Shown here piece by piece: positions 1,509 through 37,445 of a stretch of 58,594 nt of DNA; the first letter of the stretch is position 1, and each line of letters starts with the position of its first letter. The DNA is from a virus, in IMG/VR virus record IMGVR_UViG_3300028111_000007, positions 1 to 58,594 of that record; one strand, written 5' to 3'. Position numbers and translations under genes: made by a program. The notes beneath the pieces were generated by a model that was not told the origin of the DNA, made no database searches, and worked only from the letters and a program-made list of their open reading frames with translations.

Positions 1509-2879
1509 TTATCTTCCGTACTTTATGATTCCCATCAGCTGATTGATAGCAGCAAAAGTACCTGTTAGTTTCATAGTCTTTCCTTTATATACAAAAACTA
1601 TTCCTTCAGTTGGTATGATAGATTCTACTCCTCCAATTCTATCTAATCTCTCTAGTTCTTTCATTACCTTTTCGATCTGAGTAACGCTTCCATCTTTTTT
1701 GATCTTTTCAGATTCTGATCTAATTTGATTATGTAGTCTTTGCATCTCTTTGTCTGGATTTGCAGCTACAAAATTAGAAGCATTCATAAGAATTATAGAC
1801 CCTAGTTCTAAAAATAAATCTTCAAACGGTCTAATGTTTTCTTTATATTTCTTTTTAACATCTTCTTTGTCAAATTTCTTAACAGAAGCAGCTTCATCTT
1901 TTCCTATCTCCTTTGCAAGTGATCTCATATTTAAAGACTTTTTATCTCCATAAGCCCATCTTAATAATAAACCTTCCTTATAGTCTTGTTGTAAATCTGG
2001 GAAATTTGCATCTATTGTTTCTCTCCACCACATTTCATGATATCTAGAAACTTCGTCACCGTCTGTTAAGTTATAACGATCTCTTAATTTTTCAATCTGC
2101 TTTATAAATTTAGCTTGATTTTTATCAAAATTAATATCTTTACCTAGTTTTAAAATCTGAGGAGGAATTATTGTAAATGTCTTTTGAACATCGGCATCTA
2201 CTTCCTTTAAAGCTTTGACTAATTCTCCTGCTATTTTTCTAGATCCTGTAATATTACCATTCCCATCAGTTTCTTGAATATCGTGAAATTGAAGAACATC
2301 TCTTTCGTAATAGATTACATTTGGGTTTTTAGAATAGATTAATTCTATATTTATAAAATCTTTACCGTCATTAAATATGGACTGATCTTTAATTTTTGGA
2401 AGAGCTTCATTTAGATCTTTAGCTGCAAACACGTATGTTTCTCGCACTAAAGGTACCTCATGCTTTTCAAACATTTCTATAATACCGTCTAAATCAACGG
2501 GACTAATTAATTGACCTTTATTTCTAGAAAACATCGTAACTCCGTTTTTTACGGTTGCTAATAGATTTTGACCGTCTGTTTTTTCAGTGGCTACCTCTTC
2601 AAAGTTTAATTCTCCTTGAAGACCGGACGTTACGATCTTTTTAAAATCTGCGAATGTTAAATCTTTTTCATCGAAAGGATGAGACATGTGACCAGCTGCA
2701 CCGCCTTCTAAGATTAATTCTTCTTTAAGTGTATTGTATTTTTCAACGATATATTCGTCAAATGATAAAACTTTACTCTTATTTTCACTCATATAATGTG
2801 CAACATATTCCTCTCTGGTCATGCCTTGTGCATCTGCGTGATGTTGAATAAAATCTACAAAGTTGTTATTTAGTTCCAT
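1509..2879 (-). CDS. Ligase-like nucleotidyltransferase, 456 aa
   Basis: This is a soluble protein with a covalent nucleotidyltransferase signature: motif I EKTDG (candidate nucleophile Lys100, KxDG at 100-103) and, near the C-terminus, EGIVF (Glu425) followed by KLTG (Lys437), matching motifs IV and V of ATP-dependent ligases. The GGAAGHMSHPFD segment (residues 59-70) precedes the catalytic core; I recall similar sequences in cyanophage and other marine T4-like proteins, but could not search. The reaction is probably AMP transfer to a nucleic acid end, but the substrate is not visible. It follows a strong terminator, so it probably has its own promoter; CTATATAC lies directly before the ATG. 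The next gene encodes a second ligase-like domain, so the two may work together. Confidence 0.65.
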   Translation of the reverse strand: MELNNNFVDFIQHHADAQGMTREEYVAHYMSENKSKVLSFDEYIVEKYNTLKEELILEGGAAGHMSHPFDEKDLTFADFKKIVTSGLQGELNFEEVATEKTDGQNLLATVKNGVTMFSRNKGQLISPVDLDGIIEMFEKHEVPLVRETYVFAAKDLNEALPKIKDQSIFNDGKDFINIELIYSKNPNVIYYERDVLQFHDIQETDGNGNITGSRKIAGELVKALKEVDADVQKTFTIIPPQILKLGKDINFDKNQAKFIKQIEKLRDRYNLTDGDEVSRYHEMWWRETIDANFPDLQQDYKEGLLLRWAYGDKKSLNMRSLAKEIGKDEAASVKKFDKEDVKKKYKENIRPFEDLFLELGSIILMNASNFVAANPDKEMQRLHNQIRSESEKIKKDGSVTQIEKVMKELERLDRIGGVESIIPTEGIVFVYKGKTMKLTGTFAAINQLMGIIKYGR

Positions 2880-2895
2880 GTATATAGCTAATATA

Positions 2896-2931
2896 ATTAA
2901 AAAACTTGACCCGGAAAAATCCAGGTCAGTT
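2896..2931 (-). terminator. Rho-independent terminator after the 708-aa gene
   Basis: Read on the minus strand, AAACUGACCUGG pairs with CCGGGUCAAGUUU (one G-U pair and one bulged A) around a short AUUUUU loop, followed by a run of U. It sits 16 bases beyond the stop codon of the 708-residue gene. Confidence 0.85.
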
Positions 2932-2946
2932 TATTTTTATTTTTTA

Positions 2947-5073
2947 TTATAAATATCTATCGATAAATTCTTCTTTGCTACCAACAAATGATCTAGTCTT
3001 TGGGCCGAAAAGAACAATCTCAGCACCTTCTGATTTAAGCCAATCTGCAACTTTTTGAGCTTTTTTCTTATCAGCTGATAACCATACTGTGTCAAATTCA
3101 GGACCATGAGACCTTTGCATTACAATACCTCCTTTTTCATTTGTAAATTTAAACTTATCTCCAAGAGCAACACTTACTTTAATATTTTTATCAAAATTCT
3201 TTTTATGATTCTTAAAAGAATATGCTAAAGCACCTGAGTAACTTTTAGTGTCAGTTGTAAATTCATCTAAAGATGTAGTAGTACCTTCATAAATATTTGA
3301 TTCAAATGCTGGAACTAATCCAGTTTCTCCGTAGATATCTGCCATCATCCATTTTTTAGAACCTTCATCCCATAAATAAACGAATTCTGCACCACCTTCG
3401 TAATTTGCATCTTTAATATATTTGTTAATATTCTTAACATTACCTTTCATCAGATTAACATCTCCGCCATAGAAATTAATTTTCTTAACGTCTTTATCTA
3501 AACCTGAATTATCTCCATTTTTAAGAACAAAATCTACATTTTTACCACTTTTAAAGGTTGATTTAATAATAGGCAACATGTTTTCAGGATATGAATCATA
3601 GTGAGTATATACTGAAGTAATATTTCCTTTCTTGTCTATTTTACCAAATTGACCTCTAGTTCCTTCATTAATTACATAATTGATTACTTCGTTAAATTTA
3701 GATTCTTTTAAAGAAATTTCTTCTTCAGTTAATTGAAACTTAACTGATTCTTCTACTGCGTTAAATCCTGCTAATAATTTTTCAGCAAGTTTAGATTCAC
3801 CAATAGATTCTAAATATAGAGCAGTGCCTTCAGCAACTCCAATACCTGACCATCCGGCAGCATTTGAAATTCTAGAATAATACTCATCTAATATCTGTGA
3901 TATTTTCTTTGCTCCTACTATAATAGCTTGTTTACCAAGAGTTAAAGGATTAACAGTAACACTTCCTAATCTTCCTTTGATAATTTTTTCAGTAGCTGTT
4001 CTTTCTCTATGGAAATTAGCATCAGTTAATGCTTCAGCGTAAATATATTTAATAGCTCCTAAGTGAGAAATTTTATCAGCTGTTAAGCTTCCTAGTTCTG
4101 CAAATATTTTATTGTATTGAGTTAATACTTTCTTTGCATCTCTTTTATATTTAATATCTAAGGCCTCATTCATTAATGATTCTCCTAATCCCCAGTAATT
4201 TGCGTGATCGTATTCAACTGGGAATATACCTAAATCACCTTCATCACCTTCTTCACTTTTAACAATTTTAGCAAGATAGTAATCTCCCTTTGCAGTATCT
4301 TCATATCCGTATGAATCTGCATCTGATCCCATTTCTTTTTTAAATTGCTTTGATATCTTTCTCCAATTATCGATAGCGATTATTTCAACTTCGCTTCCAA
4401 TTGAATTTTCAGTAGTATCTCCTACTTTAAATTTAGCTTTTTCAGTAACTAAAGATTCTGAAAATTCTTCAATATGTTCCATATCGATTTCATCTTCTCC
4501 CTTTAATTCTTTTTGTACTTCTTTAGACTTTACTAATTTTGAAAGATCTTTCATAGTGATTTCTCCATCAATGAAGTCAGCTAGTATATAGTATTGATTA
4601 GAAGAATATCCTTCACTGTCTCTAAAATCACCAATTTCTTCAATTGCTGCTTTAGTAACGGTCTTAGCTTCAGTAACTAAAGATTCGCTTAATGAATTTC
4701 TTAGACCACAGTGTACGCATTCTACCGTTCCGTCCTTGTCAATTTGCTTATATAAATGTCCTTTTTTATTAGTACACTTTGGTTCGTCTGATTCAGTAAC
4801 TTCTTCTGATGCAGTAACATCTTCTACCTCTACTTCTATTTCAGCTATTTCTTCTTCTGAAACATCTCCAAATATTTTTGAGATAATTGATTCTTTCTGA
4901 TCTTCTTCTAAACCTTCGAAAGAAGTTAATCCTAATTCATCTAGAATAGCAGCTATTTTACCAACTGATTCTTGTCTTTTTAAATTGTTTTCTTCTCTAA
5001 GTTTACTAACAGATTCCTGTTTTCTAATCTCTGTAAACGATTTAAATGAAGAAATTTTATTAACTTGTGCCAT
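2947..5073 (-). CDS. Modular capsid-tagged protein with zinc ribbon and cleavage-like linkers, 708 aa
   Basis: Not recognised as one family. The N-terminus contains SSFKSFTE, resembling the capsid-targeting tag on other proteins here. Residues 60-98 are very acidic. A zinc-ribbon-like cluster follows (Cys100, His106, Cys119, Cys122). Three near-identical linkers, SESLVTEA (cut-like Glu135), SESLVTEK (Glu211) and GESLMNEA (Glu303), separate the zinc ribbon, two small domains and a large C-terminal part. They look like sites for a T4 gp21-type prohead protease, which cuts after Glu. I infer a protein packaged in the head and possibly cut into pieces. A GATATATA motif lies 34 bases upstream and a terminator follows, so it is probably a single-gene late unit. 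Confidence 0.55.
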   Translation of the reverse strand: MAQVNKISSFKSFTEIRKQESVSKLREENNLKRQESVGKIAAILDELGLTSFEGLEEDQKESIISKIFGDVSEEEIAEIEVEVEDVTASEEVTESDEPKCTNKKGHLYKQIDKDGTVECVHCGLRNSLSESLVTEAKTVTKAAIEEIGDFRDSEGYSSNQYYILADFIDGEITMKDLSKLVKSKEVQKELKGEDEIDMEHIEEFSESLVTEKAKFKVGDTTENSIGSEVEIIAIDNWRKISKQFKKEMGSDADSYGYEDTAKGDYYLAKIVKSEEGDEGDLGIFPVEYDHANYWGLGESLMNEALDIKYKRDAKKVLTQYNKIFAELGSLTADKISHLGAIKYIYAEALTDANFHRERTATEKIIKGRLGSVTVNPLTLGKQAIIVGAKKISQILDEYYSRISNAAGWSGIGVAEGTALYLESIGESKLAEKLLAGFNAVEESVKFQLTEEEISLKESKFNEVINYVINEGTRGQFGKIDKKGNITSVYTHYDSYPENMLPIIKSTFKSGKNVDFVLKNGDNSGLDKDVKKINFYGGDVNLMKGNVKNINKYIKDANYEGGAEFVYLWDEGSKKWMMADIYGETGLVPAFESNIYEGTTTSLDEFTTDTKSYSGALAYSFKNHKKNFDKNIKVSVALGDKFKFTNEKGGIVMQRSHGPEFDTVWLSADKKKAQKVADWLKSEGAEIVLFGPKTRSFVGSKEEFIDRYL

Positions 5074-5106
5074 TTTTTAATGTTTATTTAATTTAGTTTC
5101 GTTATT

Positions 5107-6615
5107 CTATATATCTCCGTCAAATTTGACTTTCTTAATACTATACTCAAATTTCTCTTGTTTATAAATTTTCTGCCTCGCCTTACTATGTTTATATAAA
5201 TAGTTATCCCATTCGTCAGTTCTAATGTCATCCACAAAATCGACAATTAATACAGCTTCTTTAGACTCATGCTGCCTTAGACCTCTACCAATTGACTGCC
5301 TGATGATCACCTCGGACTTAAATGACTCTGTAAAGAATATATTGTGTATTTTCTTAATGGAAATTCCAGTAGAAAATGTACCATAACTCGCTACAATAAC
5401 TACTTCATCTCCTGCTTCCATTTTCTTTTTATATTCTTCTCTAATATCTTTATCTGTTCCTCCATCTACATAAAAAACTCTTTTATCTGAGTTTTGGCGG
5501 AGCTGTTCGTATATTTTTTTACCATGTTCTATTCTATGAAACAGAACTAGAGAGTTCCTAGGGACCTTGCCAACAACATTACATATAAAATTAAGTCTAC
5601 CAAAAGAATTAATAATATAATTTTGTTCCAGTTGAAAAACATCCTTCCTATCATACTTATTAAATGCTAATTCTTCAAATGCTTTTTTGGCGGAATCAGG
5701 TGCGTAATTCATTTCAATTACTTTTACTTTACATTTAGCGATGTGACCCTGACTCTGTAAAAATGCAGCCTTAACTTCGCTAATTACAGGACCCGTTTGA
5801 CTCATTAGTGTTAACTTGTCTAAAGATCCATCTTTAGGAATTGTACCCGATAAACCATATTTATATTGTGCACTTGTACATTTTTGTAATATAGTCTTAA
5901 TAGAATTAGATTTCGCTTTATGAGTTTCATCTACAATAACAGCATCGAACTGTTGAAAATATTCTTTAGGCTTTTTAACTAAGGACTGATATGTACCTAT
6001 CACTACATTCCTGTCTGACTTTATTTTCTGGCCGGCATATATCTGTTGTATCTTTAGTTTTATTCTATTCTTATTATTGTATTCGTGGAAATCTTCATGG
6101 GCCTGAACAACTAGAGAAACATTAGGAACTATAAATAATATCTTTTCGGCCTTTTCTTTTTCTAACATATACGCCACTGTTAAAAAACTAATAAGTGTTT
6201 TCCCAGCGGAAGTTGCTAATTCAGCTAAACATCTCCTAAACTTTAGGATATTAAATGCTGTTTCTATTTGATAATCCCTTGGAACAAATTTACTACCCTC
6301 AAAAAATTCTAAAGCCCATGCTTCAAATGATTCTGCACCTATGTTTCTATCAAATAGTCTTTGAATTCCATTAAGTTTAAGATCAAACTTATATTCCTTG
6401 CAAATGAGCATAACGTATCTCCAAAGACCGGCGGGAATCCACTTATCGTCTTTGATGTATGAAACATATCCGTCCCATATTCCTTTCTTGACTAAAGGAT
6501 TAAATCTCCAACTATCAATTCTTTTAGTTAAAGATATTTTAATCTGCTCTAGTTCAAGTTCCTCTGCTTCATCAATTCGTAAGAATTGATTATCATCTGT
6601 TAGAGTTAAAATCAA
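5107..6615 (-). CDS. uvsW: UvsW-like DNA/RNA helicase
   Basis: Superfamily 2 helicase of 502 residues; T4 UvsW is somewhat longer. It has Walker A ATSAGKT (134-140), the DExH box DETH (229-232), motif III SGT, and the C-terminal motif VI QSIGRGLRQ. The N-terminal region before VPRDYQ matches the UvsW DNA-binding domain in position. In T4, UvsW unwinds R-loops and branched DNA, switching replication from origin- to recombination-primed and helping strand exchange. It follows the uvsY-like gene by 17 bases, the same partnership as in T4. No Shine-Dalgarno sequence is visible. Confidence 0.93.
   Translation of the reverse strand: MILTLTDDNQFLRIDEAEELELEQIKISLTKRIDSWRFNPLVKKGIWDGYVSYIKDDKWIPAGLWRYVMLICKEYKFDLKLNGIQRLFDRNIGAESFEAWALEFFEGSKFVPRDYQIETAFNILKFRRCLAELATSAGKTLISFLTVAYMLEKEKAEKILFIVPNVSLVVQAHEDFHEYNNKNRIKLKIQQIYAGQKIKSDRNVVIGTYQSLVKKPKEYFQQFDAVIVDETHKAKSNSIKTILQKCTSAQYKYGLSGTIPKDGSLDKLTLMSQTGPVISEVKAAFLQSQGHIAKCKVKVIEMNYAPDSAKKAFEELAFNKYDRKDVFQLEQNYIINSFGRLNFICNVVGKVPRNSLVLFHRIEHGKKIYEQLRQNSDKRVFYVDGGTDKDIREEYKKKMEAGDEVVIVASYGTFSTGISIKKIHNIFFTESFKSEVIIRQSIGRGLRQHESKEAVLIVDFVDDIRTDEWDNYLYKHSKARQKIYKQEKFEYSIKKVKFDGDI
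5108..5115 (-). promoter_or_regulatory. GATATATA late-promoter-like motif before the 708-aa gene
   Basis: GATATATA on the minus strand, overlapping the uvsW stop codon and 34 bases upstream of the ATG at 5073. Confidence 0.6.
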
Positions 6616-13424: not shown

Positions 13425-14246
13425 TTAAAATCTAAGAAATTTAGGGGACCAGTATACTCCTATACCAATTGATGGACCAGTACTTATAACTTGATTGTTA
13501 TTCAAGTTAAGTCCATATTGAAATCCAACACCAATAGACCACCCTGCTTTTTTCTCATATTTATTATTTAATCTATCGTTAACTAAGTTTATATTTTCTA
13601 TATTAGTGAACGTTACTCCTTTATATGGAGTTGTAATTTTAAGTCTGTCAAATCCTTCTTCATTAATGATGGCAGCACTTAAACCTATTCCCTGTATAAT
13701 ATCAAATCTAGAAGAGAATAAATTATAATTAGTGCTATCCTTTAAAAGAGATATACTTCCTTGAAATCTTCTCCAGTTATATTTATCAAACTCCCACTTA
13801 TCGTTTACGTCAACTGTTATCGTATCTATATTATTTATAGAATCCGTATCAACGGTTACAACTCCATTTGCGTTTATTATAGAATCTTTTACGTTTAAAG
13901 TTGTTGAAAGTAAACTATTAACATTCTCTAATTCGTTATTAATATTTAATTGATTAGCATATTTAGAAACTAGTTTCTTATTACTTTCAGTTAGGGTGTT
14001 TACATCATACTCAAAGGATCTTATACTAGAAACTAATTCTTTATTTTTATTCTTTTCAATTATAATAGTATCTTGCGTGGCTTTATAGTTATTAAGGTTT
14101 CTATCAGATACCTTCTGAACTTGTATAATTTCTCTTTTTAAGTTTTGGTTAGAGTTACATTGTTGTAAAAGACAAAACAACAAAATCGCAAGTCCTCCGA
14201 AAAGAATTACGTTTTTGTAAAGTTTATATGTGTTTATTATATTCAT
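13425..14246 (-). CDS. Membrane-anchored coiled-coil protein, possible spanin or envelope protein
   Basis: Residues about 12-30 (NVILFGGLAILLFCLL) form one membrane segment, followed at once by QQC and a long helical coiled coil to about residue 110. The C-terminal region is beta-rich, with GWSIGVGFQYGL and GIGVYWSPKFLRF ending in Phe, as outer-membrane strands do. The inner anchor, periplasm-sized helix and outer-membrane-like end together suggest an envelope-spanning lysis (spanin-like) protein, or an anchored lipoprotein, though QQC is a poor lipobox. No holin or endolysin is adjacent, so this is speculative. Confidence 0.45.
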   Translation of the reverse strand: MNIINTYKLYKNVILFGGLAILLFCLLQQCNSNQNLKREIIQVQKVSDRNLNNYKATQDTIIIEKNKNKELVSSIRSFEYDVNTLTESNKKLVSKYANQLNINNELENVNSLLSTTLNVKDSIINANGVVTVDTDSINNIDTITVDVNDKWEFDKYNWRRFQGSISLLKDSTNYNLFSSRFDIIQGIGLSAAIINEEGFDRLKITTPYKGVTFTNIENINLVNDRLNNKYEKKAGWSIGVGFQYGLNLNNNQVISTGPSIGIGVYWSPKFLRF

Positions 14247-14255
14247 ATCTTTATT

Positions 14256-17200
14256 TTAATCACATCTCAGCATTCCTCCTAGGGAAACCGATGCACCGGA
14301 ACTTGGAGTTGTTATTATTACACTACCGATCGCTGCACAGAATGTTTGTGAAGGTCCATTTACCAGGATCGTATCAAACTGTATAACACCGTTACAATCT
14401 TCATAAGAGTAAAGTGATGAGGAATTAGTCCCGGCTGTCACCACATGTGACTCACATAGACTAGGGCATGTAGCTGTTGTTAAAGAACCAGTATACGTAA
14501 TTTGCGTAGAATTACCCGCTGAATGCTGTATTACAAGATCGTTAGTGGTATATCCCATGCCTAATTGCGAACATGCTGTCACTGATTGGATATCAATTGT
14601 TCCTATTCCAGTATTAATGTTAGGTGGATTTACGGTTGCAGTATACCTAGTTCCATTTCCAGTGTTTTGGGAAGTACCTGAAATTACAATAGGAGTTTGA
14701 GTAGCATCGTTTGTTATATACTGTACCTGGTCGCTACCGTTTCCCGCTCCAAAGGAATAATCATCCAAATTAAAGGTAGACCCTCCTTGTATTTGAAGTG
14801 CTGAAGTAGGTGGATTATAGTTCTGTACGCACACTGATGGATCGTATCCCATTCCAGCCGGCTGTCTATTCCATGCTGAAGAACTGTAATCCGGACTTCC
14901 ACCGCCATTATATATACCGTTGTCAGTGTCAGGATCTAAATAATCTTCGGTTCCATCTTGTATCTTATCACTCCACCATGCAGTTCTAAATTTAATAGTA
15001 GAACCAGGATTATTATCTAAATAAGAATATATGTCGTTTGAAACTGAAGGTGATACTAGGATTTTAAATTCAACCCTCTGATATCTTCTAAATTCAGTAT
15101 CATTCTGTCCAGTATACCAATAATCCCAATCTTCTCCAGATAATACACCTGTCCCTGGGTTTTCCCATCCTCCGCTATACATCTTTTCTATGGTACCACC
15201 GGGACCGCTTATTGTCGGACCAACTTGTGTACCTATTGTTGCAGCCGTATTCCAGTGATTAGTACCCTCTGTATAGTTATATGGCATTGAATATTGTGGA
15301 AAGTCAGTTGTCGGGTCTATTGTTAAACTATCATAGAGGTCTTCTATTATACCTTTGTTCCATCTTGTAATTATAGGAACTTGAACCATCGCAACAGTTT
15401 GACCTATATCATTATAAATGTCTAAAAAGACCTCTGCTGGCCATGTCCATCTTCCCTGTTGATCATATAATTCTCCGCTTGTTAATGCGTTTGCTGTGGT
15501 AGAATTAGCCTGCTCATAAAGTGAAGGCCATACGGGCTCAAATTGACCAGGGCTTCCCGATATTGGACGTACTATTGCGCCGTCTGATGTATTAGTAGCC
15601 CAATCGCCATATCCTCCTCTACCTCCTGTTAGTGTTAAACTAAATCTGTTGTTCGGCGGAGGAGCAGAATTAGAAGGACTGTTTGATTGATTCATAGGAC
15701 TATAGTGCCAACTCTCTTCTTCAGGATCTTCTACTTTAGGCAATCTATAAAAATAACGAGGAGTACCATACCAGCTATTTCCTCCTTTTTCCCATGAGCT
15801 TCCAGTTGCAACTATATGTGCAGATGGATCTGTTATATTTAAAGCCACCGGATCTATTCCCATACTGGACTGTCCGGGAGAAACTGTATAAAAGTTGTTT
15901 TGATAACTAAAAATCTGACCTTCGTAATATGAACTAGTTGAACTTGGATTAAATTCTCCTACGTAATTCCATGCAGATGTAGTAGATGTATTTCCATTCC
16001 ATCTTTCTGACCAGTCAGTAAACCATGAATAAGATTCTGCTTCTCTTTCAGTATTGCAATTAGGTGGTGATTCTGGAGAAGGATTTGATGACCATGAGGT
16101 ATCTTTACCTCTAGCTGTTAATCTTAAGTCAAATATATTAACTTGGCCGTATTCGAGTTGAACATCTGACGTACTTCCTGCTGACCATGTTCCTGTTGTA
16201 GTATTTTTAATTTCTCTACCTGCTGATTGAAGTGGCTGTCCAACGATAATCGAATTACCTTGATATCCATTAGCATCTACTAAATTTATTTCTCTCCATC
16301 TATCTGCTCCTGCTTCATCTGGTGAATTAGGAAATACTGCATCGTTATATGTTGTGCTATTGTTATCTAATAATTTAGAATACATGGCAGGGAATGTAAG
16401 AGGAGCAGGGCCTGTAACATTATAATATAAATCAGATGCTCCTAAATATATTAATTGAGGAGTTTTAACAACCGCATACTCAGTTGTTGCATAATTAGAA
16501 TTAGTTGAAGTCTCACTTACCCATGCCTCTGTAGAATCAACAGTTATATCATATTCAATTGAATTCGCGTCTTGAGAGAAAGTAAATAGACCTCCTCCTA
16601 TAAAATTAGGTCTTGATGCACCACTTAGTGATGTTATTTGGCCTACGTTTGTTGTAAAATTAAATGAAAAGGAATTTAAATTAGGAACAGTGTAGTTTAT
16701 ATTACTATTTTTCCAAGTTTGACCATTACATAAATACCATCCCTCATATTGCGTACCTGCAACTCCTCTTCCAACTACAATATCTATCGTACTTGGATCA
16801 CTATTTAAATTTATTGTTTGATTCTGTGTAAAGTTACTAACATCAATATATGTGTCATAATGAAAAGATATTATTGTTCCTATGGGAACACTTGCACCTA
16901 TTTCAGATGCTTCCTTAAAACCTATCGTTCCAGTATTGTCTAATGCCACCGCAATCTTATCTACATCTGGGTTAGTGTTAGTTGTTCCACCTACGTAAGA
17001 GTTATTAATTTTAAAAATACTACCTGTAAATATTGCATCGTTAGTAGAAAGAAATGATCCTGTAAATTTTACACCGTTAATAGCGTCCATTGACATCATC
17101 TCATTATCATTGACATCGTTGATTATGTACGTATCTGCATTCCATCTATATTCTCCTGCCGCTACACTAGATGCAAATTTAAATTCTAGAACAGACTGTT

Positions 17201-17738
17201 CGCCAATTGAACTTAAAGCAGGATAATTAGTCAATGCTATGTCTAAATACTTATCTGTTCCTTTTTCAGATATTAATCTAATGTTAGAATCATGATAATT
17301 TGAATTCTTATTAATTAATAAAACGCTATTTAGATACCCCGATATTAAATTTAAATCATTATACTCATCATCATTACTTGCATAACCTAATAATACGTTA
17401 GTTGGAGGGAAATTCACCTGTGTTGCTGGACCTGCCAGCTCATGTTCAGGTACTATAGTTTTAATATTAAGAGCTCCATTGTACCATATTGCTCCGTCTT
17501 TCCATTTTGAATTATTAGAAGCGTCAGCAGGTCCTTGAAAACCCTGAGGACCGTCAATACCCTGAGGACCATCGTCACCAGTTGCACCCTGAAATCCCGT
17601 TTCACCAATAGAACCAGTGGCTCCCATTGGTCCACCGCCATTAGCAACTAACTGATCAAAGTTATAATTAACTTTATCCAGTTTTTCCTGTTGTGTATCA
17701 GATTGTAGAATCTGCTTTAAATTAATAGGTATTGGCAT
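14256..17738 (-). CDS. Collagen-stalk tail fibre protein A, 1160 aa
   Basis: The N-terminal module (LKQIL, then KLDKVNYNFDQL) is shared with the next fibre and probably attaches to the baseplate. Residues about 36-70 are Gly-X-Y repeats (GPMGATGSIGETGFQG and on), forming a collagen-like triple helix. Around residues 285-360 a collar-like unit reads GTIISF, GWYLCNGQTW, TVPNLN. The long Ser/Thr/Asn/Trp/Tyr-rich remainder is the likely receptor-binding part, ending in a Cys-containing tail. Trimeric fibre function is inferred. It is a diverged paralogue of the neighbouring fibre but lacks the Hint domain. Confidence 0.75.
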   Translation of the reverse strand: MPIPINLKQILQSDTQQEKLDKVNYNFDQLVANGGGPMGATGSIGETGFQGATGDDGPQGIDGPQGFQGPADASNNSKWKDGAIWYNGALNIKTIVPEHELAGPATQVNFPPTNVLLGYASNDDEYNDLNLISGYLNSVLLINKNSNYHDSNIRLISEKGTDKYLDIALTNYPALSSIGEQSVLEFKFASSVAAGEYRWNADTYIINDVNDNEMMSMDAINGVKFTGSFLSTNDAIFTGSIFKINNSYVGGTTNTNPDVDKIAVALDNTGTIGFKEASEIGASVPIGTIISFHYDTYIDVSNFTQNQTINLNSDPSTIDIVVGRGVAGTQYEGWYLCNGQTWKNSNINYTVPNLNSFSFNFTTNVGQITSLSGASRPNFIGGGLFTFSQDANSIEYDITVDSTEAWVSETSTNSNYATTEYAVVKTPQLIYLGASDLYYNVTGPAPLTFPAMYSKLLDNNSTTYNDAVFPNSPDEAGADRWREINLVDANGYQGNSIIVGQPLQSAGREIKNTTTGTWSAGSTSDVQLEYGQVNIFDLRLTARGKDTSWSSNPSPESPPNCNTEREAESYSWFTDWSERWNGNTSTTSAWNYVGEFNPSSTSSYYEGQIFSYQNNFYTVSPGQSSMGIDPVALNITDPSAHIVATGSSWEKGGNSWYGTPRYFYRLPKVEDPEEESWHYSPMNQSNSPSNSAPPPNNRFSLTLTGGRGGYGDWATNTSDGAIVRPISGSPGQFEPVWPSLYEQANSTTANALTSGELYDQQGRWTWPAEVFLDIYNDIGQTVAMVQVPIITRWNKGIIEDLYDSLTIDPTTDFPQYSMPYNYTEGTNHWNTAATIGTQVGPTISGPGGTIEKMYSGGWENPGTGVLSGEDWDYWYTGQNDTEFRRYQRVEFKILVSPSVSNDIYSYLDNNPGSTIKFRTAWWSDKIQDGTEDYLDPDTDNGIYNGGGSPDYSSSAWNRQPAGMGYDPSVCVQNYNPPTSALQIQGGSTFNLDDYSFGAGNGSDQVQYITNDATQTPIVISGTSQNTGNGTRYTATVNPPNINTGIGTIDIQSVTACSQLGMGYTTNDLVIQHSAGNSTQITYTGSLTTATCPSLCESHVVTAGTNSSSLYSYEDCNGVIQFDTILVNGPSQTFCAAIGSVIITTPSSGASVSLGGMLRCD

Positions 17739-17790: not shown

Positions 17791-20700
17791 TTACTGGACC
17801 TTTTCCTCTAGCTCTTCAACATTATGGCATAAAATACCGTCTGCAATATAAACATCTTCATTTTCAACATCAATAGAATATGTGTTAACCGTTTTGTGAA
17901 TAGTTTCATTAGAGTTAACTCTTGTCCATTTTTCATTAACATATATCATGTCGGTCGTATCAATATAAAGAGCCTGTTTAAAGAATATTTCTCCATCTGG
18001 TCTTTTTATTAATATAGGGTGTTCGTTTGTTATTTTAGTTAATCCGTTATTAATATCTTGATAGTTCTTATAAGTTCCTTTTATTATTCTGACTATTTTA
18101 GCAGATGACTTAGGAGCCCTGAATTCCATCGCATTAGTTTTAAAATTTCTCCATTCACCACTATCGCTTAATCCTTTTATATCAAACGAATCTAATACAT
18201 CTCCTACTTTTAAGTTTTCAACTAATTTAGTAGTTCCATTTGCCATACTAATTACAGTACCTTCAACGTGACATGGATCAATGGAAATTCCTATAGTAGT
18301 ATCGCTAGCGAGTTCATTCAATGTACCACTATAATCAAAATCTAAGTCCAATATTTCACTAGGCTCTTCTATTGGCGTCATGATACTTAGTGATACATAA
18401 TTGTCACCTGGGTTGAAACTTACACTAGCCCAATTCATGCTGTTGCTAGGATCCTCTATAGTAAAATTAGAAGAACTAAGCTGGGATGGAGATATGCCAC
18501 TAAGCGTAAAATAAACATTTCCATTACCTCCTCCACCGAAATAATTAAGTGTATTATTGGTATTTCCGTCATCCCAGTCAAATATAACACCGGATGGACT
18601 TCCTCCCGAGCATTCTGTCGGATTAGTGGCAGTTGCTTGACTATTTGAATCAATAGCTTTATAATGTTCACCTGTATATCCTGATGTACCAGAGTCTCCA
18701 GTCCAGTCGGCTATTTTTATCGAGATGTTTGTTCCTGGAATAAAGGTATCTGATTTTAATAATGTAAGTGGATATTTTCCAAGATTAGCGATTGAACTAT
18801 AAAGAACTGTGTTAGAACTCTGGTCTTGTCTTACGTATATTTGGTTTGACAACCATGACGAAACTCTACCTTCATTCTCGGCATTTGAATTAGATGCACC
18901 TAAATTCGTTACGCGCCATGATCCAGGGTTTTCTCCTAATTCAAACATATCAGAAGAATAAAATATATCATTACCTGAAGTTGCATCACATGCCGTAGTA
19001 GCACCTATTCCAAGAGAAAGGTCTCCACTCGACCATTGTACAAATCTAGATTTTATAACATCTCCTTTAAATTCATTATCATTTGCTGACCAATATTTTC
19101 TCCATGCCATATATAATCCAGAATCTATTGTTAACATACCACCGAAGCCAAAATTAACCAGATACGTATCCGTATTTGGTACACTCCTATACCAACCATC
19201 AGTTAATTGATCTATGGTATTATTTCCATCATTACGTTTCCATATATGTGAAGTATTTTCATAATCTTTAAAATCACTAGAAGATCCCACGACATCTGGA
19301 TGATTGTCTATTTTATTAGAAATAAATACTTTTTCCAAAGAAGTGCCGGCTGGCCATCCAGTAAACCCGGTTACATCTGCCTCTGTCATTGTTACAGGAG
19401 GGAGCAGTCCGTTATTAGAAATACCAATGCTAGAATACGTACCGTCAACTCCATTTACACTTTCAGAATACATCATCCAGCATTCTTTAGGCTCTGTTTC
19501 TAAAGCGTCATCTGAAGATATCCCAACACCATTAATATATTTTCTTGCATAGCCCCATCCATTCTGTCCACCAGATTCTCTAGCTAACCATCCGTCTGCT
19601 AATTCCTGTCCGTTTGAATAGCATCTTACATTACCATTTGCAAAATTATTATCGTTATTCCAATAAGCATCTAATTGAGCTCCATCACTTGGAGCACCGT
19701 CTGCCGTCCATTGTATTGTTTCTGGGTTTAATGTAGTTGCATATTGCATTGCAATATCTATGTTAGTGCTGTACGTGCCTGGTGCGATAGTATTTGAATC
19801 CATAGATCCTGTCATCGCGTGATATTGTAATTGTATATTAGAAGAGCTGGTAGAGGCGGCGGCCGTACTCCACTTATAATCATATTCTTTCAAATAAATT
19901 ATACTAATTTGTTCTCCCATTATGATATGCTCAGAAGGCGCAAACTGTATATTTTCATTGTCATATATTCTTACATCTTCTGTACTATTATCAAAAGAAT
20001 GTGATATGACATTAGGGTTTAATCCAGAACCATCGAGACCCAATGCACTAACTCCTCCTGAAAAAAGTATATTACCATTATATGTGGCTAAGCTACCTCC
20101 ACTTGTACTGCCTGATAAATCTCCCGTTAAACCTGCTATATTAGTAATAGCCCAGTCAAACCCGTTTAAGTTAGGTGTATCGTATGCTACGATTCCTCCA
20201 TCACCCCATGTTTCTCCATTACATAAGTACCATCCTGCATAAAGCCCGGTTGGTTTACCTGATCCGAAGTTTGTTTTAATTACTTCATCTCCGTCTACAA
20301 TTAACATAGGCCCTGTCTCGGCATCCGATAGATTAAAGTTCTCTTCACCAAAGAAGGTATCACTGGGTATTCTTATTATAGATCCCACGGGGAATACTTG
20401 AAACATGTTAAAAACATCTTCCCATTCAACTCTTCCCTGTGTGTCGTGTGATTTTAGTAATTTATTTAAACTTGGAGAGTGATTAGAATACTTTATCTCC
20501 CCTACTTTAAATTCTATTACACTACCCGGCGAGGTTGCATCTACATTAAGTTCATACGGAATTACGGATTCGGCACCTAATACGTTTTGAATGGTTCCAT
20601 TAAAATAAAACCTATTGTCTCTATCAAATTTTATAGCAAATTTATTATTTACGTGATCAGCATTGATATCCGGAGTAAATGTTAAAACAGGAAATTCAAT

Positions 20701-21285
20701 ATTATTACTATCTTCTTCTATTTTTAATCCAATATTATATGACTTATCGAGATGTTTATCTTCTGCAAATATGATAGAATTCTGAGGAGATGGAGTGGGG
20801 TTATTGGGGCTTGAACCGGTTGAAGCTTCTGTTATAATATTTAATGTTCCGCTCTTCGAAGCACTGACAGGCTCTGTTGATAATTCACCATAATAAGGAC
20901 TTATTAATTCCCCATTGCTATCTAAATGAGCCGATGCACCAATTGCTAATGTAACCGTTCCACTCTGATTAACAGCAACGGAAGGATATATTACCCTTTG
21001 TGTTGGATTATTATCATCTGTTATCTCTTGTGATTTCCAAGTTCCACTTGACTCTGGTCCTATCATACCCTGTGTTCCACGTGGTCCCTCAGTTCCTTGT
21101 AGACCGTCTTCACCCTTATCACCATCTTCACCATTTGGTCCTTCAATTCCTACAGGGCCACTTGGCCCTCCGTTTTTCATTAGTCTAAAATTAAAATTAA
21201 TTTTATCAATTTTATCCTTTGACCACCATTCACTACTGTTAGGATCTAGATCACTCTTAAAAAGTTCTTTGATTCTTATGTTCAT
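17791..21285 (-). CDS. Collagen-stalk tail fibre protein B with C-terminal Hint (intein-like) domain, 1164 aa
   Basis: Same architecture as fibre A: an attachment module with DKIDKINFNFRLM, Gly-X-Y repeats (about residues 39-77), then a collar-like unit with GSIIRI, GWYLCNGETW and DTPNLNG, and a long Ser/Thr/Asn-rich adhesion region. Uniquely it ends in a 151-residue Hint domain from Cys1005 (CHVEGTVI, then NLKVGDVL) through block B TNEHPIL (Thr1086, His1089) to GILCHN (His1154-Asn1155) and nine final residues beginning with Val. No homing endonuclease is present. Autocleavage, rather than splicing, is expected because the +1 residue is not Cys, Ser or Thr. Role inferred: fibre maturation or covalent attachment. 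Confidence 0.82.
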   Translation of the reverse strand: MNIRIKELFKSDLDPNSSEWWSKDKIDKINFNFRLMKNGGPSGPVGIEGPNGEDGDKGEDGLQGTEGPRGTQGMIGPESSGTWKSQEITDDNNPTQRVIYPSVAVNQSGTVTLAIGASAHLDSNGELISPYYGELSTEPVSASKSGTLNIITEASTGSSPNNPTPSPQNSIIFAEDKHLDKSYNIGLKIEEDSNNIEFPVLTFTPDINADHVNNKFAIKFDRDNRFYFNGTIQNVLGAESVIPYELNVDATSPGSVIEFKVGEIKYSNHSPSLNKLLKSHDTQGRVEWEDVFNMFQVFPVGSIIRIPSDTFFGEENFNLSDAETGPMLIVDGDEVIKTNFGSGKPTGLYAGWYLCNGETWGDGGIVAYDTPNLNGFDWAITNIAGLTGDLSGSTSGGSLATYNGNILFSGGVSALGLDGSGLNPNVISHSFDNSTEDVRIYDNENIQFAPSEHIIMGEQISIIYLKEYDYKWSTAAASTSSSNIQLQYHAMTGSMDSNTIAPGTYSTNIDIAMQYATTLNPETIQWTADGAPSDGAQLDAYWNNDNNFANGNVRCYSNGQELADGWLARESGGQNGWGYARKYINGVGISSDDALETEPKECWMMYSESVNGVDGTYSSIGISNNGLLPPVTMTEADVTGFTGWPAGTSLEKVFISNKIDNHPDVVGSSSDFKDYENTSHIWKRNDGNNTIDQLTDGWYRSVPNTDTYLVNFGFGGMLTIDSGLYMAWRKYWSANDNEFKGDVIKSRFVQWSSGDLSLGIGATTACDATSGNDIFYSSDMFELGENPGSWRVTNLGASNSNAENEGRVSSWLSNQIYVRQDQSSNTVLYSSIANLGKYPLTLLKSDTFIPGTNISIKIADWTGDSGTSGYTGEHYKAIDSNSQATATNPTECSGGSPSGVIFDWDDGNTNNTLNYFGGGGNGNVYFTLSGISPSQLSSSNFTIEDPSNSMNWASVSFNPGDNYVSLSIMTPIEEPSEILDLDFDYSGTLNELASDTTIGISIDPCHVEGTVISMANGTTKLVENLKVGDVLDSFDIKGLSDSGEWRNFKTNAMEFRAPKSSAKIVRIIKGTYKNYQDINNGLTKITNEHPILIKRPDGEIFFKQALYIDTTDMIYVNEKWTRVNSNETIHKTVNTYSIDVENEDVYIADGILCHNVEELEEKVQ
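17821..18273 (-). other. Hint/bacterial intein-like (BIL) domain within fibre B
   Basis: Encodes Cys1005 to Asn1155 of fibre B. Block A (Cys start, GTVISMANG, LKVGD), block B (TxxHP) and the terminal His-Asn are all intact. The residue after Asn is Val. This matches A-type BIL domains, which typically cleave rather than splice. Confidence 0.85.
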
Positions 21286-35355: not shown

Positions 35356-35625
35356 TTATCTAATTTTTTTATCATCTTTTTTCATGGTGTAAGATTTGTA
35401 AATTTTTAAATAGTTTACAGAATCTACCCAATCGGCGATTGTATCTTGAATAAGATTAACAAAGTCGTTCATTTGATTATTTCTCCAAATATGAGAAGAA
35501 ATTGAGTTTTTCAAAATATTACTTCTATAATCATTACCTAAATTTTTTCTATCGTCAAATGCATTTTCCCTGATAGAATATAATCTCTTTTTTCTACTTT
35601 TAAAAAGGTTACTAAAAATACTCAT
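35356..35625 (-). CDS. Small basic protein in wedge operon, 89 aa
   Basis: Not recognised. Basic N-terminus (SNLFKSRKKRLYSIREN) and a helical C-terminus ending in lysines. It overlaps the gp6 stop by one base and precedes the gp7-like gene by two bases, so it is tightly coupled to wedge synthesis. Possibly a small wedge component or chaperone. Confidence 0.6.
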   Translation of the reverse strand: MSIFSNLFKSRKKRLYSIRENAFDDRKNLGNDYRSNILKNSISSHIWRNNQMNDFVNLIQDTIADWVDSVNYLKIYKSYTMKKDDKKIR

Positions 35626-37445
35626 TATATAGCTTTTCTATTTTTAGCCTGAACTTTAGCGAATATGCTATTTTTCACAGCTGGTTCATCAAAGTAAATT
35701 GAAAGAGCTGCTTTTTCTCCAGTCTTTACTGAATCATCCACCATGTTTCCATTTTGATCTAACCAGCCACCTCTAAATAATGCAACTTCTTCTTTTTCTA
35801 AAATTATATCTCCAAATGAATCTAAATTAATTACATTCTCTGGAAGAGGTGCATTGGGTTCAAAATTAATTTGCCTTTCAGTTACTGTTCTTTTAAAGAA
35901 AACCATTTTTTGTTTTCCATTACCTATATCTTCTAAGATTGGGGTAGAAGGAGTTACCGTTACTGTTTTAGAAGTATAATATCCTAATCTTCTAGCCGTT
36001 TCTTCTTTTTCAGAAGTGAATTTAACGTTAACGGAATCAATACCTTCAATTGATTCAACAATAGCGACAATATCAGATTTTGGTAATCTATCTCTTCTTG
36101 TAATGTTAATTAGGTATTCTGCTATTTTAGATCTAATTTCAGTAGCAAGATTAGCCTTTGTATATCCTTCAAAGTATCTTACTTTAATATCCATTCTAAA
36201 ATATTGTGGGGAAGGATCTACTATTTTAATTTCAGTTGTTACCATCTGTCTTCCTGATTTTTCTAATAATCCCATAATTCCTTCTTTTTCTATTTCAGTA
36301 AAAAAGAATTCAGAATTATCTAAGCTAAAATAATCTTTATTGTTTTGTAATTTTTTAAGAGTATTAGGCAACATGAACAGATAGATAACATTATCATCGT
36401 CTAAATATCCATCATCTGTAGTGTTATATGCATCTAAATAAGAAAACATACCATATCTTGAAAGAAAGTGCTCATAGTTATCAGGAGTTGCTAATACAAA
36501 TGAATGTGACTGTAATGGGGCAATTAACTTTGTTAATTCAATATCTTCTGGATTTGCTCCCATTTTAGGTGCAACTGTAAATTCAGATTCTAATAATTCA
36601 TTTAGATCATGCGTATTTCCTAATGAATCTGTTCCTTCAGTTTTGAATTCAAACGATAAATCAGCTCTACCGTTTAAATTACCCATAGCACCTCCTATTT
36701 TTAAATATTCGATTTCAATCGATGCACCTGTTGGAGGAATGTCACCAAATGAACCATTACCGAAATAAAGATCTAATCCACCTGTAATTCCTGTTTTTAC
36801 TAAATAACCTTCAGTTCCCTTTTTCATATCATATAAAGAATCATATTTAGTCCATAAATTAGAATTAACCTTTACTCTAATCTGTCCATGGTCTATCATG
36901 CTTTTAGTTATTACATTAAAGGATTGAAAAGATTCTCCAGTTGAGGTTAATGTTTGAGATTCATATTCTCCCTGAATTACAGGAATATAAATATAATTTG
37001 CGTTTGATTTTTCTAATCTAAATTGATCATTACTTGTTCTCAGGGTGTATTTAAGACCGTTGTCTTTGCATTCTATAATAGCATTGGATGGAATGTTTAA
37101 AGCATCACCAGCAATATCATCTAAACCCTGCACTCCTAATCTAAGCTTTAATTCACCTGAAGCGGCAGCTCCTCTAAATGAATCATGTCCTGCTAATCTT
37201 GAGAGTCCATATATTGATTCTGGGTTTTGAGCTGTAAGAATATTTTGCTCTACTGTAGAATCTTCAATGTAGAAGAATATTAATCTTCCTATTTCTGAAA
37301 TAACGTCTAGGATTTGTGAAAACGGAGAGGCTGTTGTAAATGCACCTTCTACCTCGCCATATATCCTAGTAATATAGGATCTAATGTCGTCAATCATTTC
37401 TCCAGCTTTTATTCTGGAAGTTGATAAAAATTTATTATCTGCCAT
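35625..37445 (-). CDS. 6: Baseplate wedge protein (T4 gp6/gpJ-like)
   Basis: 606 residues against 660 in T4. The N-terminus (SPFSQILDVISEIGRLIFFYIEDSTVEQNI) matches the helical start of baseplate J/gp6 proteins; the middle and C-terminal parts contain the J-type pattern (YFRMDIKVRYFEGY, then LPKSDIVAIVESIEGIDSVNVKF). gp6 forms the inner iris ring of the baseplate with gp25 and gp53. It follows gp25 by 17 bases, the T4 order. Confidence 0.88.
   Translation of the reverse strand: MADNKFLSTSRIKAGEMIDDIRSYITRIYGEVEGAFTTASPFSQILDVISEIGRLIFFYIEDSTVEQNILTAQNPESIYGLSRLAGHDSFRGAAASGELKLRLGVQGLDDIAGDALNIPSNAIIECKDNGLKYTLRTSNDQFRLEKSNANYIYIPVIQGEYESQTLTSTGESFQSFNVITKSMIDHGQIRVKVNSNLWTKYDSLYDMKKGTEGYLVKTGITGGLDLYFGNGSFGDIPPTGASIEIEYLKIGGAMGNLNGRADLSFEFKTEGTDSLGNTHDLNELLESEFTVAPKMGANPEDIELTKLIAPLQSHSFVLATPDNYEHFLSRYGMFSYLDAYNTTDDGYLDDDNVIYLFMLPNTLKKLQNNKDYFSLDNSEFFFTEIEKEGIMGLLEKSGRQMVTTEIKIVDPSPQYFRMDIKVRYFEGYTKANLATEIRSKIAEYLINITRRDRLPKSDIVAIVESIEGIDSVNVKFTSEKEETARRLGYYTSKTVTVTPSTPILEDIGNGKQKMVFFKRTVTERQINFEPNAPLPENVINLDSFGDIILEKEEVALFRGGWLDQNGNMVDDSVKTGEKAALSIYFDEPAVKNSIFAKVQAKNRKAI

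Follow-up and report, generated by a model that had tools for sequence, protein, structure and literature searches.

On the minus strand of virus record IMGVR_UViG_3300028111_000007, whose full 58.6 kb we call the window, the tail-fibre gene fibre B (17791-21285) encodes a protein of 1164 amino acids (aa) that ends in a Hint domain, the fold of inteins and of bacterial intein-like (BIL) domains. Translation of the open reading frame (ORF) and profile searches confirmed a complete domain at 17821-18273 (aa 1005-1155), as the initial annotation had described, with Cys1005 (18271-18273), the block B motif Thr1086-Asn-Glu-His1089 (18019-18030) and a terminal His1154-Asn1155 pair (17821-17826). Val1156 follows as the first of nine residues, VEELEEKVQ (aa 1156-1164; 17794-17820), and then come tandem stop codons, TAA TAA, so the earlier count of nine residues beyond the predicted cut was correct. 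Lys1162 (17800-17802) lies in this tail, whose last four residues had pLDDT <50 in our structural model, and Pro1004 (18274-18276) occupies position -1 of the predicted N-terminal scissile bond, as DP here and as NP or GP in relatives. Upstream, all on the same strand, are an N-terminal part (aa 1-39; 21169-21285), a collagen-like stalk (aa 40-77; 21055-21168) matched by Pfam Collagen at 0.0012 (under the cut-off) and by PHROG tail fibre profiles, and a GWYLCNGETW motif (aa 351-360; 20206-20235), which we take to be collar-like and which BLASTP showed to be common to the neighbouring fibre A.

From the fibre B sequence alone, the profile search that the initial annotation had proposed gave weak Hint matches: the isolated domain matched the Pfam profiles Intein_splicing (1.7e-4) and Hint_2 (8e-4), both below curated cut-offs, and TIGR01443 (intein C-terminal region) at 17.6 bits, exceeding the cut-off of 15.6. 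PHROG 38766, a 'virion structural protein', matched more strongly, covering aa 999-1157 at 1.2e-10. A profile built from 56 relatives matched the structures of the C. thermocellum BIL (2.3e-18) and Tetrahymena BIL2 (1.5e-17), with every intein ranked behind. The AlphaFold2 model of the domain (pLDDT 88, pTM 0.82) retrieved BIL2 (6y75) as the top Foldseek match (1e-9) and a bacterial BIL as the second; 61 PDB chains scored E<=0.001 and, among the matches listed, all had the Hint fold. Together, these matches show that the fibre B Hint is not a chance resemblance, and both profile and model fit BIL domains better than any intein, bearing out the likeness first suggested.

By every testable feature, the domain belongs with type A BILs. 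The family profile, model and Foldseek matches place a Hint fold at the end of fibre B; Cys1, the block B TxxH and the C-terminal His-Asn are all present; the +1 residue is not Cys, Ser or Thr (Val1156 here; Val, Ile or Gln across the fibre B clade); and the host proteins are variable, with fibre bodies down to ~30% identity and many different stalks. Catalytic activity is predicted from these residues. An intein, ordinary or decayed, that had inserted at the C terminus would have the same fold and motifs, but the lack of Cys, Ser or Thr at +1 and of an endonuclease insert, the BIL match ahead of inteins and the invariably C-terminal position on many different host proteins make such an origin very improbable. 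For fibre B itself we rejected an intein identity on the basis of Val1156 and the domain's position. No Hint-free allele of fibre B was found among relatives, in which the Hint is always C-terminal. Two further identities did not fit. The HINT of polymorphic toxins is located immediately before the toxin domain (PMC3482391), whereas only nine residues and TAA TAA follow the fibre B Hint, which excludes a toxin-release role; the PT-HINT profile (PF07591) nonetheless matches 32 of the 56 family members. Hedgehog Hog domains have a sterol-recognition region after the Hint and no terminal His-Asn; fibre B has the His-Asn and its nine residues.

Conservation is concentrated in the catalytic positions. 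Among 56 diverse C-terminal viral Hints, only Cys1, the Thr and His of TxxH and the final His-Asn are invariant; our sampling patterns sat around block B or the His-Asn end, and each site was still invariant in loci retrieved via another site. With these as the only invariant columns, both the N-terminal and the C-terminal chemistry appear to have been kept. Relatives L015, L017, L041 and L043 share 90-98% identity with the N-terminal 40 residues of fibre B, which probably attach the fibre to the virion. Beyond residue 80, the fibre body falls to 74-86% (L015), 49-61% (L017) and 29-45% (L041, L043), and the Hint stands at 97%, 95%, 61% and 61% in L015, L017, L041 and L043, respectively. Codon changes between the fibre B and L017 Hints comprise 25 synonymous and 8 non-synonymous differences. 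The Hint is thus under purifying selection, being 95-97% identical where the body is 49-86% identical. These data bear on whether the domain is no longer catalytic and acts as a receptor-binding or structural tip. It does occupy the place of receptor-binding tips, its catalysis is a prediction and Pro1004 could fit an inactive domain, yet a tip used for binding should vary as the body does and not form the conserved part, and invariance restricted to catalytic residues in 56 diverged members is hard to reconcile with a passive role, which we regard as unlikely.

The domain is widespread at the ends of viral structural proteins. Scans of IMG/VR yielded several hundred loci, and tblastn against isolated phages found tail proteins ending in Hints in jumbo phages of Erwinia, Dickeya and Yersinia, in Alcaligenes phage Afa-NA1 and in Phage NCTB; a Vibrio phage match that we examined was an intein, internal to a P-loop ATPase and followed by Cys at +1. 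The proteins that bear these Hints are diverse, by domain names assigned by eye, and include collagen fibres, proteins with BACON-like N termini and P/T-rich stalks, Fn3-like giants and a 1764-aa tail protein. The -1 residue is Gly in 60 of 100 terminal Hints, many of which have poly-Gly (often GGGGGG) directly before Cys1, and Pro in 7 of 100, the fibre B clade among them. Plasmids gave no match to the family, and a first scan of bacterial genomes found no relatives. In Phage NCTB (L479:8420-15679), three tail-region proteins each carry a terminal Hint, with tails APVDQKH, KVD and AVMVAKK, and mutual cross-linking of the three is possible. Six viral loci (L312, L284, L172, L304, L319 and L271) encode two or three tandem Hints per protein, with linkers of 2-10 residues and a final Hint that ends HNK-stop.

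Tails behind viral Hints vary in sequence and length, yet a lysine is kept, and this is the new observation here. Within the fibre B clade, the nine-residue tail is only 22-67% identical to those of relatives and nonetheless keeps its lysine (tails VEELEEKVQ, VENIEEKIQ, IEEEKISG, QEEAKTE and QEQEQKYN). In a first sample of C-terminal viral Hints with tails of <=30 residues, controlled by length-matched C termini of 622 other long ORFs on the same loci, at least one Lys was present behind all 101 unique Hints (101/101; tails of 1-26 aa without common sequence). The rule held at <70% identity (57/57), at <50% identity (31/31 vs 12.2 expected; log10P -14 if independent) and at <40% identity (20/20 vs 7.8 expected). 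Most tails contain a single Lys, the first lying at +1 to +9 in the <50% identity set; Arg is rarer in Hint tails (13% vs 34%), and Cys is absent from them. Two further scans supplied a held-out set of 16 new non-redundant Hints, of which 15 had Lys. A quick tree of 55 Hints, with several long branches, implies at least 25 shifts in lysine position and zero losses.

The sole C-terminal viral Hint found without a tail Lys is L460, the exception in the held-out set. It has Cys, the canonical acceptor, at +1 (HN-CNCGISPYVEV), and might represent a late intein or serve as a natural control. Viral inteins with Cys, Ser or Thr at +1 follow the lysine rule in only 2 of 7 cases; of 29 internal viral Hints that are neither tandem nor inteins, 27 have a Lys no more than 12 residues away. 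Several artefacts could be excluded. Shine-Dalgarno or C-terminal composition effects are countered by the length-matched control C termini, which have Lys in 39%, not 100%; the amino-acid patterns of the scans stop at or before the His-Asn, ruling out a search artefact; depletion of Arg in the tails argues against positive charge, as opposed to an amine, as the selected property; and a recoded stop masking a longer tail is excluded by the TAA TAA of fibre B and by TAA in most family members. Because the tail residue stays Lys, not Arg, wanders in position and is dispensable where Cys occupies +1, it has the behaviour expected of a nucleophile carried by a flexible tail, and its constant presence in short tails suggests self-excision of the Hint with joining of the fibre to the lysine.

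We therefore lean towards a reading, drawn from sequence and comparison, in which the fibre B Hint is an autoprocessing BIL-type domain that excises itself and passes the C terminus of the fibre to an amine of the tail, most likely that of Lys1162. In an N-S acyl shift assisted by Thr1086 and His1089, Cys1005 would convert the peptide bond that follows Pro1004 into a thioester; the acyl group would then go to the tail amine, most likely the Lys1162 side chain, of the same or a sister chain; and cyclisation of Asn1155 would release the Hint. Pro1004 would then be the last residue of the mature fibre, which would carry the nine-residue tail on an isopeptide bond, and the purpose might be to remove a tip-folding domain or to fasten chains covalently after assembly. 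The initial annotation had held that the domain cannot splice, which is too strong, as Val at +1 rules out canonical transesterification only. Its alternative of attachment to an amine is strengthened and is the best mechanism, with the target moved from another protein or the host to the fibre's own tail lysine.

According to the providers of the BIL2 structure, its splicing creates an isopeptide bond to the side chain of a lysine, K(epsilon-NH2), and they locate a nucleophilic ubl5 lysine at the N-terminal junction (PMC8616854). In a review of type A BILs, a thioester forms, the Asn cyclises and a free amino group carries out the ligation (PMC4031507). The simplest reading of the viral Hint family is BIL2 chemistry whose acceptor lies in a short tail. 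BIL2, from the Tetrahymena BUBL1 polyubiquitin locus (6y75, 6tmm), is the closest fold to the fibre B Hint and its second-best profile match, at ~20% identity, and in both the C-flank holds a lysine, the reported acceptor being in the C-flanking ubl5. Unlike fibre B, BIL2 is eukaryotic, lies between two ubiquitin-like domains and uses an acceptor in folded ubl5, not in a short phage tail; no Ubl profile matched upstream of the fibre B Hint, and a ThiS-like match (E 0.02, under the cut-off) overlaps the Hint itself. The best profile match, the type A C. thermocellum BIL (2lwy), shares Cys1, TxxH, the His-Asn end, the lack of Cys, Ser or Thr at +1 and variable host proteins. It differs in that the fibre B Hint stands at the extreme C terminus of a virion fibre with a lysine tail, and in that descriptions of type A splicing name the free amino end of the C-flank as the attacking group, whereas we propose a lysine side chain. 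Among phages, the PHROG 38766 tail proteins of Erwinia, Dickeya and Yersinia jumbo phages and the 'intein domain' proteins of Phage NCTB combine the same collagen or Gly-rich part, Hint and short Lys tail; they differ from fibre B in Thr at +1 in most Erwinia and Dickeya members, in having no Pro at -1 and in a Hint only ~30% identical.

Several points weigh against ligation to the tail. Pro at -1, present as DP, NP or GP before Cys1 throughout the fibre B clade, slows or blocks the first splicing step in intein engineering, so that C-terminal cleavage alone is possible in fibre B. Cellular C-terminal Hints lack the Lys in 3 of 9 cases (6/9 follow the rule), Hints of the Erwinia clade hold Thr at +1, a possible canonical nucleophile, besides Lys, and a tail that can be as short as one Lys would bring no obvious benefit once attached. 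The type A BILs tested so far yield mostly cleavage products (PMC4031507). The Hint might accordingly only trim itself off, by N-terminal hydrolysis, C-terminal hydrolysis or both, or by Asn cyclisation alone, after aiding fibre folding like an intramolecular chaperone, with loss of the tail. The record of type A BILs, the -1 Pro that disfavours the thioester step and a C-terminal domain that stays constant while the body changes fast all suit such a processing or folding role, but Lys in 101 of 101 otherwise free tails and the departure of inteins from the rule would go unexplained, and we consider cleavage alone somewhat unlikely. The Peptidase S74 intramolecular chaperone of tailspikes is likewise C-terminal, conserved and self-removing; its position and role resemble those proposed for the fibre B Hint, and its fold and chemistry are unrelated.

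Transfer to an outside amine would instead use the thioester to link the fibre to a different virion protein or to the surface of the host, with the tail lysine merely tuning the reaction. Gly-rich ends before Cys1 in many relatives do recall ubiquitin-type donors. The conserved lysine, however, lies within the same protein, so that an acceptor in cis or on a sister chain is indicated, and each relative of 168-179 kb carries one Hint only, with no partner identified; we regard an outside target as improbable, and the host-surface linkage raised initially is unsupported. The single Hint per relative also excludes a second Hint in the same genome as a conjugation partner.

The lysine extends to cells. 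All 17 of 17 Hints lying inside large Patescibacteria proteins, which were drawn from the phylum of a Saccharibacteria MAG (metagenome-assembled genome), carry a Lys between +1 and +3, and GG often precedes their Cys. Patescibacteria-type proteins of 1100-2300 aa (L508-L522, L525, L526) show an internal Hint with GG before it and (D/E/A/N)KG after it. We tentatively propose, as a possibility that the comparisons raise, a widespread 'lysine-acceptor' class of Hints, in phage tail fibres and Patescibacteria proteins, that would splice onto a Lys in an otherwise free C-flank; fibre tips might thus be built by isopeptide bonds, possibly between chains, without a separate enzyme or ATP. Hint splicing onto a lysine side chain has so far been reported for one ciliate locus only, and our literature search, which left most subscription journals outside, found no description of C-terminal Hints on phage fibres or of the lysine rule. 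If the proposal is true, phages form isopeptide bonds in adhesion fibres through one self-acting domain, a function is explained for many unannotated 'intein' or 'Hint' ends of phage structural proteins, a sequence rule (His-Asn, a nearby Lys and no Cys at +1) tells such Hints from inteins, and many new self-ligating domains become available for protein engineering.

Fibre A (14256-17738, minus strand; 1160 aa) has a related N terminus and, as noted initially, no Hint; BLASTP aligned it with fibre B only over ~390 N-terminal residues at 27% identity. The suggestion of a recent gain or loss did not hold: every relative examined, even where fibre bodies are only ~30% identical, has the Hint on fibre B and none on fibre A. 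Among syntenic relatives, L215 carries it on the collagen fibre (3612-5904) and L046 on the neighbouring P/T-stalk ORF (2755-5507), so the module seems to move between adjacent fibre genes.

Genes around the fibres encode tail-tube, baseplate and head-tail adaptor proteins, and contigs with the same domain reach 179 kb. The virus is likely a contractile-tailed phage of Bacteroidota, given the relatives of its baseplate wedge protein (35625-37445), whose best matches come from uncultured megaphages and Prevotella Lak phages and which also matched Tenacibaculum phages. This protein is 33-42% identical to those of Lak and other uncultured megaphages, though contigs of the present phage group reach only about 180 kb. 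Directly after the fibres, at 13425-14246 in the window and likewise in L015, L017, L043, L046 and L215, a 273-aa protein with an N-terminal membrane segment is a spanin-like candidate by position.
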